Source of the DNA: Puteibacter caeruleilacunae
GTDB lineage: Bacteria > Bacteroidota > Bacteroidia > Bacteroidales > Prolixibacteraceae
Assembly (NCBI GenBank): GCA_005217565.1
Contig: SJCO01000007.1
Coordinates: 248,001 to 312,000, forward strand
Direction of reading: 5' to 3'
DNA length: 64,000 nucleotides
Positions 35,655 through 37,163 of this stretch are shown piece after piece (the stretch's first letter is position 1; each line of letters begins with the position of its first letter). Both the position numbers and the translations under genes were made by a program. The notes under the pieces were generated by a model. It was not told where the DNA came from and ran no database searches. It saw only the letters and a program-made list of their open reading frames with translations.

Positions 35655-35689
35655 AAAAAAAAAGCCGAAGAAAATTAATCCTTCGGCTT
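35655..35689 (-). terminator. trpB attenuator (intrinsic terminator in leader)
   Basis: On the minus strand AAGCCGAAG (35689-35681) pairs with CTTCGGCTT (35670-35662) over a 10-nt loop, followed by a run of nine T (35663-35655). It lies between the Trp-rich leader peptide and trpB. The loop and first bases of the right arm (35680-35668) are also perfectly complementary over 13 nt to 35730-35718, giving a competing antiterminator. Confidence 0.9.
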
Positions 35690-35717
35690 ACAATATCTTG
35701 TACGACAACTCAGTCCA

Positions 35718-35730
35718 GATTAATTTTCTT
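35718..35730 (-). promoter_or_regulatory. Antiterminator strand of the trp leader
   Basis: These 13 nt (minus AAGAAAATTAATC) overlap the last codons and stop of the leader peptide and pair perfectly with 35680-35668, inside the terminator hairpin. A ribosome stalled at the Trp codons (35758-35750) would leave this strand free, favouring read-through; a ribosome reaching the stop codon would cover it, favouring termination. Confidence 0.8.
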
Positions 35731-35803
35731 TTATCCGAATAAAGCTACGCCACCACCAATTGTGTCGTCTTACTGAACTGATATGTACTATTAAATTCGT
35801 CAT
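35720..35803 (-). CDS. trpL: trp operon leader peptide with three tandem Trp codons
   Basis: A 27-codon ORF on the minus strand, ATG at 35803, TAA at 35720. Residues 16-18 are WWW (minus TGGTGGTGG, 35758-35750), inside RRHNWWWRSF. Trp is otherwise rare, so three in a row in a 27-residue peptide just upstream of trpB is the classic mark of ribosome-stalling control. The start is 7 nt after an exact -7 promoter box, so the transcript is almost leaderless. A short helix (35768-35763 with 35707-35702) encloses the Trp codons and could act as a pause structure. The symbol is used by analogy with enterobacterial trpL. Confidence 0.88.
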   Translation of the reverse strand: MTNLIVHISSVRRHNWWWRSFIRIKEN

Positions 35804-35810
35804 TGCGCTG

Positions 35811-35818
35811 CAAATATA
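35811..35818 (-). promoter_or_regulatory. -7 box of the trp leader transcript
   Basis: TATATTTG on the minus strand, an exact TAnnTTTG, ending 7 nt before the leader ATG. The expected start of transcription is within 0-3 nt of that ATG. Confidence 0.7.
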
Positions 35819-35858: not shown

Positions 35859-37163
35859 CTAATTTAGTGCTAAAATTTCATGATGATTAGCATATTCAAA
35901 TAAGTTCCTTTCAGGCCATTGCTTTATTCTTGAATTAATTTTTTGCATTAAATAATTAATCTCCTTTGGGAATTTTGATCCTTTCCAACTACTTGTATTA
36001 ATCAAAACAACCCAAATTGTTCCATCAGGCATACGTTTTGACATAGCTGATGTACCAGCCATACTTCCAGTACGCCACCAATAACCATTATTCGTCGTTG
36101 CCATCCATCCATATGGCCCCCAACCTTCTCTAGGATCAACCATTTCCTTGATTAAATCCCCTGGCAATACATCCTTTACTGATTCGAAACCATCAACAGC
36201 AACCAACAATTTACTAAGTTCAACAGAAGATCCGATCCAACCTCCAGCAGCCCCTAATAACTCAATATTGTTTCCTCCATATGATTTTGCAACATACTCA
36301 CCGCTTCCATAGGATGAAAGTACCATAGGAGAACCTTTCTGTTCATAATATTTCACCTCATTTTCTCGCCTATCATCTAACAGACTTTTTCCAAGATGCA
36401 TATCATAAATACCTAATGGATATAGAATTTTGAAGTTCACATATTCTTCATATGGCATTTCAGATACTTTCTCAATAACTTTTCCAAGAATAACATATCC
36501 CATGTTAGAATATGACTTACGTGTTCCTGGAGTAAAATGAAGGCGTCGTGAAACAACAAACTTTAAATACGTATCGGGAGTTGCAGGATTTTCATCTCCT
36601 ACTTTACGAGCAATATCAAGAGGATGAAATGCTGGATCACCATAACGTTGGCTCCAGCCACCAGAATGACTTAAAAGATGTCGTATTTTAATTTTACCTA
36701 TACGTTTATCCTTATAACTCAAATATTCTGGCTCATTAAAAATTCCAGCTTCACCAAACACATAACTATCAAGAGATAGCTTGTTTTCATCTACAAGCTT
36801 CATAATGGCAATAGCAGTGATTAATTTAGAAACGCTCGCCATTCGAAAGAGGTGAGCTGGCGTAACAGGTAAATTGGTTTCTGCATCAGCTAATCCATAA
36901 CCTTTTGCAAAAACCAATTTGCCATCTTTAACAACAGACATCGATAAACCTTTGAGTTCCCATCGGCGCAAAAATCGATTCGCTGCTCCATCTATATAAT
37001 CTGAATATTGGAAATCTGATAAATGATTTTCTAATTCTTGATTAATTGATTTTTTATCAATAGGACGGATACGTCGCGGATATAAGTTTTTCTCCGGAAA
37101 AACAAGATGTATCCCGTTGAAAAACAATATAATAAACAATACTATTTTAATTCCAATCCTCAA
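35859..37163 (-). CDS. Serine beta-lactamase-like hydrolase (class C fold)
   Basis: 434 residues. The start is TTG at 37163: a TAG lies two codons upstream in frame, and no other Met precedes the fold. An N-terminal signal-like segment is MRIGIKIVLFIILFFNGIHL. Catalytic S110-x-x-K113 lies in MASVSKL and the YxN motif is in SYSNMGY. This is the beta-lactamase/D-aminopeptidase/esterase family; true beta-lactam hydrolysis is unlikely to be the main role for a chromosomal member of this type. It has its own -7 box at 37186-37193, though it also follows pyrD by 44 nt. Confidence 0.85.
   Translation of the reverse strand: MRIGIKIVLFIILFFNGIHLVFPEKNLYPRRIRPIDKKSINQELENHLSDFQYSDYIDGAANRFLRRWELKGLSMSVVKDGKLVFAKGYGLADAETNLPVTPAHLFRMASVSKLITAIAIMKLVDENKLSLDSYVFGEAGIFNEPEYLSYKDKRIGKIKIRHLLSHSGGWSQRYGDPAFHPLDIARKVGDENPATPDTYLKFVVSRRLHFTPGTRKSYSNMGYVILGKVIEKVSEMPYEEYVNFKILYPLGIYDMHLGKSLLDDRRENEVKYYEQKGSPMVLSSYGSGEYVAKSYGGNNIELLGAAGGWIGSSVELSKLLVAVDGFESVKDVLPGDLIKEMVDPREGWGPYGWMATTNNGYWWRTGSMAGTSAMSKRMPDGTIWVVLINTSSWKGSKFPKEINYLMQKINSRIKQWPERNLFEYANHHEILALN

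Follow-up and report, generated by a model that had tools for sequence, protein, structure and literature searches.

A leader region at positions 35655-35818 of the 64-kb stretch of DNA analysed here (the window) very probably acts as a ribosome-mediated, tryptophan-responsive transcription attenuator of a stand-alone ("solo") trpB gene. Support for its identification as a tryptophan attenuator, made from sequence analysis, is good and comes from comparison rather than experiment. In silico, the element combines the general features of attenuators, i.e. a leader ORF with Trp codons, a terminator before a trp gene and an overlapping antiterminator, and these parts are seen directly in the sequence (Table 1).

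Table 1. Features of the leader region and its surroundings (window coordinates), with the tandem leaders of related genomes (locus coordinates)
Feature	Position	Strand	Details
-7-like box TATATTTG	35811..35818	minus	exact match to Bacteroidota-type TAnnTTTG; putative promoter
Leader ORF, peptide MTNLIVHISSVRRHNWWWRSFIRIKEN	35720..35803	minus	27 codons; ATG at 35803, stop ends 35720
Three tandem Trp codons TGGTGGTGG	35750..35758	minus	leader codons 16-18
Antiterminator 5' strand AAGAAAATTAATC	35718..35730	minus	starts 19 nt past last TGG; overlaps leader stop codon
Antiterminator 3' strand GATTAATTTTCTT	35668..35680	minus	loop of the terminator plus the upper part of each arm
Intrinsic terminator hairpin	35662..35689	minus	-15.6 kcal/mol
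Terminator T-run	35655..35663	minus	from sequence
Possible protector fold around WWW codons	35690..35803	minus	-22.1 kcal/mol; weak, no better than shuffles
Solo trpB, 412 aa	34376..35614	minus	TIGR00263, 546.6 bits (cut-off 392.45)
Upstream ORF	35859-37163	minus (same strand as leader)	ends 55 nt before leader ATG
Tandem attenuators	L148, L159, L161, L168, L170, L175, L177, L182-L184, L186, L190, L192-L194: about 1340-1640	trpE strand	before trpE

Architecture and proposed mechanism

The TATATTTG box ends 7 nt before the leader ATG. Recomputed positions agree with an earlier note on this DNA for the box, the leader ORF with its WWW codons and the T-run, all upstream of trpB. They also bear out its 13-nt antiterminator match (35730-35718 with 35680-35668), since all 13 pairs form between AAGAAAATTAATC and GATTAATTTTCTT, with a duplex energy of -11.2 kcal/mol, and the 5' strand overlaps the leader stop codon as had been claimed. 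The terminator hairpin lies where it had been placed (35689-35662), with a fold of 11 stem pairs, one of them G-U, instead of the 9 bp first given. Compared to shuffled leader tails, the antiterminator helix has a p of about 0.005, and a looser duplex test gives p 0.086. Scanning the 64 kb for short ORFs with WW codons returned three on the minus strand and none on the plus strand, and a terminator follows this leader only; 60 dinucleotide shuffles contained 3.4 such ORFs per shuffle and none with a terminator.

We infer promoter use, translation, stalling, termination and a tryptophan response for this leader as follows. Transcription would start just upstream of the leader ORF. With ample charged tRNA-Trp, the ribosome would move past WWW and on to the stop codon inside the antiterminator 5' strand; with this strand covered, the terminator would fold and transcription would stop before trpB. 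Upon a shortage of Trp-tRNA, the ribosome would halt on a TGG codon, and the antiterminator strand, 19 nt beyond the last TGG, would stay uncovered and pair with the emerging terminator loop and 3' arm, so that trpB would be transcribed. In the in silico geometry, the antiterminator strand lies downstream of a ribosome held at the Trp codons and beneath a ribosome at the stop. As the ribosome footprint is reported to extend past a stop codon by as much as 12 nt (PMC4833913), a strand located about 19 nt downstream of the Trp codons would be free with a waiting ribosome and covered when the ribosome is at the stop.

Conservation before solo trpB genes

Conservation of the element in relatives is likewise seen directly. 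Nine loci share the plan before a solo trpB (L001, L004, L005, L033, L035, L036, L038, L045 and L054), L005 only weakly. Their leaders carry WWW (the window, G012 and L035), WCW (G019), WW (L033, L038 and L045) or a single W (L036 and L054). A uniform scan of 92 of the 96 solo-type loci, the other four being too short, gave nine positives, namely eight of the nine known loci and L104, and no positive among 276 shuffled controls. Mismatches in the antiterminator of L005 caused the scan to miss it, and the L104 hit is probably the end of an upstream gene. With L104 set aside, no homologue from outside Bacteroidota among these 92 loci was positive.

The earlier note had proposed covariation in relatives as a check. 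Of the 81 anchored antiterminator cells in the nine solo elements, 70 hold standard pairs, and several positions have changed on both sides; when whole 3' strands were re-dealt, 11 of 5000 trials reached this number; the anchoring was done by hand and the register of L033 is unsure, its removal giving 65/72 and 23/5000. Loss of the leader with trpB retained, which had been named as counter-evidence, is not seen in either of the two closest relatives: G012 has retained WWW, and G019 has WCW with a weaker antiterminator. It is seen in L034 and L164, two of the ten rows of the trpB clade described below.

Searching 140 family genomes with a covariance model of the nine solo elements (R1) gave scores above 80 bits for the training members G012, G019 and G000 (the window's genome) only, and in 295 class genomes the best other match reached 58.9 bits (G642). 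A further match in G000 itself (C194:316622-316735) was rejected as an intergenic terminator without a Trp leader. Among 59 R1 loci (L165-L223), the three training members are the only ones located before a solo trpB; where a gene could be read at the remaining loci, it was mostly trpE, as recognised by eye, and about a third have no gene assignment.

A separate observation concerns Marinilabilia sp. Soudan_9 (L045:1993-2124), where a WW leader and terminator of the same type begin about 490 nt ahead of a trpB that belongs to another clade. The arrangement would fit a replacement of the gene downstream of the leader.

Pairing and spacing across trp leaders

Pairing was compared over 41 elements, comprising the nine solo elements, five found by a trpB-upstream or WWW pattern (L018, L114 and L126-L128), and 27 records from 24 loci of the RF01692 family. 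The starting set for these 24 loci was the 30 best-placed RF01692 loci; L140, L142 and L145 were removed as duplicates, leaving 27, and the RF01692 loci L134, L153 and L155 showed no leader plus terminator. Leaders pair with their own terminators at a mean of 17.3, whereas the mean never exceeded 15.0 in 2000 permutations. Taken singly, 16 of the 41 elements reach p < 0.05 in the duplex test and 17 in the helix test, and three solo elements do not support the pairing individually (L005, p 0.85; L038, p 0.31; L033, p 0.23). For L004, L152 and L158, the duplex test was measured from a later lone W, and the helix and permutation tests from the first W-run.

The best helix starts 12-24 nt past the Trp codons in 33/41 elements and in 32% of shuffles, this bracket having been chosen after the first cases were seen. 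For the 34 elements with an offset of 12-26 nt, the mean is 18.9 nt, with a standard deviation of 2.0 when measured from the Trp codons versus 6.3 from the stop codon; the value of 2.0 is conditional on that range, in which a flat spread would give about 4. When the helix search was restricted to 12-34 nt past the codons, the antiterminator mainly took the loop and 3' arm in 38 elements and the 5' arm in three, a count made without a control. This regular, ribosome-sized spacing between Trp codons and antiterminator is a new element of the finding.

Exact -7 boxes precede 15 of the 41 leaders, with the TTTG 7 nt before the ATG in L001 and L004 only and at 11-53 nt in the other 13. Leaderless mRNAs are reported to make up 5.5% of 890 in Flavobacterium psychrophilum (PMC9723704). 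A near-leaderless leader mRNA was considered as a general trait and rejected, as it applies to L001 and L004 only.

Alternative explanations

We consider it improbable that the leader is a TnaC-like arrest peptide sensing free tryptophan in the ribosome instead of the supply of charged tRNA-Trp. L036 and L054, in which the only Trp codon lies in an aromatic-W-R context and the antiterminator is paired, would fit such a peptide, as would the R or H that follows the Trp run in all nine solo leaders and in 29 of the 41 overall (four of the 41 having been chosen by a pattern requiring R/H). However, the peptide near the W-run is otherwise variable, and most of the 41 elements have two or three tandem Trp codons. 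Moreover, a biosynthetic gene is expected to be off in the presence of free tryptophan, which is opposite to TnaC.

Another tryptophan-sensing RNA device (T-box, TRAP-type or direct aptamer) or translational control is very improbable: a structured leader is present and nothing further was found in its favor, whereas in the window no Rfam family attains its gathering score, the weak E-value matches to the element are to unrelated families, the terminator and T-run lie ahead of the trpB start, and the spacing tracks the Trp codons. That the hairpin is a plain terminator of the upstream gene (35859-37163), with a coincidental WWW ORF, is scarcely credible despite the position of that gene on the same strand 55 nt before the leader ATG, given that none of the 60 shuffles produced a WW ORF with a terminator, that the arrangement recurs in nine loci, several of them highly divergent in sequence, and that own-terminator pairing beats foreign pairing in the 41 elements.

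Folding of the nascent leader

For the attenuator, the antiterminator pairing was observed directly in simulated nascent RNA. With the transcript extended to the second antiterminator strand and a ribosome on a Trp codon, the probability of the antiterminator is 0.998; in the ribosome-at-stop case, the simulation by construction leaves the first strand unavailable. The antiterminator reaches the same probability (0.998) when no ribosome is placed on the nascent RNA. At equilibrium, the full-length RNA favors the terminator even with a Trp-stalled ribosome (P 0.999). The E. coli trpL control (L163) is alike in this test, its full-length RNA likewise preferring the terminator. Since equilibrium always favors the complete terminator, the switch must be kinetic, with the order of events deciding the outcome.

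The antiterminator thus forms in the nascent stage without a ribosome, a pairing that a protector hairpin would prevent. The best fold of the window element has 22 pairs enclosing WWW, with a z of -0.84 relative to shuffles. Upstream hairpin stability against shuffles has a mean z of -0.86 in the solo elements (n=9) versus -2.79 in the other elements (n=32; Mann-Whitney p 8e-5), 27 of these 32 having been retrieved with the RF01692 model, which rewards that hairpin. The five elements found without Rfam range from z -4.41 to -1.56 (p 0.001 versus solo). The upstream hairpin is weaker in solo elements than in operon-type leaders, which is a new aspect.

Relation to known trp leaders

Vitreschak et al. 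(2004) reportedly also predicted attenuators in Bacteroidetes. The Rfam family RF01692 (Bacteroid-trp, Bacteroidete tryptophan peptide leader RNA) collects Bacteroidota trp leaders (Table 1 of PMC2864571); it represents the same kind of leader as the window element, so that the absence of a well-studied Bacteroidota case, as suggested in the earlier note, is outdated. An RF01692 leader is noted upstream of the F. psychrophilum trp operon, where it is likened to the E. coli leader (PMC6414381), and "strong clues" for leader-peptide attenuation are described in that species (PMC9723704). These leaders belong to the same phylum and concern amino-acid operons and the trp operon; the relevant passages of the two accounts mention neither a solo trpB nor the antiterminator anatomy (PMC9723704, PMC6414381). 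Among the papers listed in literature searches, which were directed at solo trpB only in small part and had thin coverage of subscription papers, none dealt with an attenuator of a solo trpB in Bacteroidota.

The window element resembles RF01692 in its short leader ORF with tandem TGG codons, its terminator and its position ahead of trp genes in Bacteroidota, the phylum being taken from tree neighbors. Most RF01692 members examined also have the same spacing and a loop/3'-arm antiterminator. However, the upstream hairpin of the Rfam model is weak in solo elements, and the model gives no match to the window element up to E 10 (gathering cut-off 49 bits) and none at gathering score to the nine solo elements. 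Above this cut-off, RF01692 is found in 12 of 100 relatives. As the family covers such leaders but not the window element, we regard the latter as a known kind of switch that is kept outside RF01692.

The E. coli-type model (RF00513, Trp_leader) gives no match to the window element. Both E. coli trpL (L163) and the window element have a tandem-Trp leader peptide and a competing antiterminator and terminator, with a similar spacing in E. coli (14 nt past the Trp codons, counted by eye). The Trp-attenuator mechanism put forward in the earlier note is supported by anatomy, conservation, compensatory changes and spacing, but to equate it fully with the enterobacterial trp model goes too far. In E. 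coli, the antiterminator takes the 5' arm of the terminator, whereas here it takes mainly the loop and 3' arm; the leader stop lies inside the antiterminator strand, unlike in trpL; and the upstream protecting hairpin is no stronger than in shuffles.

The solo trpB and its genome

The window maps to contig C194 of G000, a 7.97-Mb genome with two trpB genes. The other copy, 50% identical to that of the window, is part of a trp operon on contig C18 that is complete (E-G-D-C-F-B-A). Both the family model and solved relatives identify the window gene as an ordinary TrpB. Its subfamily spans Spirochaetota, Pseudomonadota, Campylobacterota, Myxococcota, Bacteroidota and others, with many MAGs. The closest named matches are Marinilabiliaceae and a Saccharicrinis MAG (76-80%), but identities of 76-77% are also seen with Vibrio and Grimontia. 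A quick maximum-likelihood tree of 111 rows places the window trpB within a ten-row clade (SH-aLRT 97); the attenuator is present in eight of these rows, and L034 and L164 show neither leader nor terminator. Family relatives cluster with Mariniphaga and Draconibacterium, which makes the Prolixibacteraceae the probable family of origin. At E up to 1e-200, a solo trpB occurs in two of 295 order genomes, G000 and G295, and the G295 copy (L164) has no attenuator.

The trp operon of G000 has its own WWW leader (GTG start, VRNLTVHTWWWHCLIFQHREVS) and terminator before trpE (L003:12940-13080; G000:C18:40934-41097, minus strand), scoring 43.7 bits with RF01692, below the cut-off of 49. The solo and trpE leaders of G000 are identical at 15 of 16 aligned bases (p 0.007), and the solo leader of G000 also resembles the trpE leader of G019 (p 0.003). 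An origin of the solo leader as a copy of the trpE leader finds no clear support in G012 (p 0.04, TGG run only) or G019 (p 0.25).

Other Trp leaders in the family

In the window's family, tandem Trp attenuators occur before trpE, with a first leader, NTIWLPWWGL, and its terminator followed by a variable WWW leader and a second terminator (Table 1). Two leader-terminator units are present in 19 of 23 loci inspected, or 16 of 20 distinct places, including L157 with two WWW leaders. The NTIWLPWWGL (WLPWWG) peptide is near-invariant, with almost no silent changes (five distinct codon strings), which hints at a constraint on the RNA or the nascent peptide. When at most one mismatch is allowed, an 18-nt core of this leader occurs in 74 of 140 family genomes, from 10 of 23 genera (reversed control, 1), and one silent change occurs in five of the 74. 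The core was not seen in G000, and the matches listed for 395 class genomes contain no exact one. Trp-codon leaders also precede operon-type trpB (two loci) and trpD (one locus) in other Bacteroidia (L198, L213 and L214).

Discussion

What is new relative to known Bacteroidota trp leaders is that the gene under predicted control is a second trpB and belongs to a cross-phylum subfamily. In E. coli, a leader left untranslated leads to termination. As a tentative reading, which we hold to be possible though rather unlikely as a whole, solo-trpB attenuators would form a stripped-down two-state class lacking a real protector, in which an untranslated leader reads through and the antiterminator strand is fixed at a ribosome length past the Trp codons. 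Such a class may have arisen when a Bacteroidota lineage acquired a trpB of the cross-phylum subfamily and this gene came under the Trp-starvation signal of its host, next to an operon that keeps an attenuator of its own.

The spacing offers a simple rule for locating leaders of this type that escape the covariance model. It also yields a ribosome-footprint prediction that can be tested in a phylum reported to be without Shine-Dalgarno sequences (PMC9723704). For the organism, the predicted attenuator would tie a second, stand-alone trpB to tryptophan starvation, and such control argues that this gene encodes a working tryptophan enzyme.
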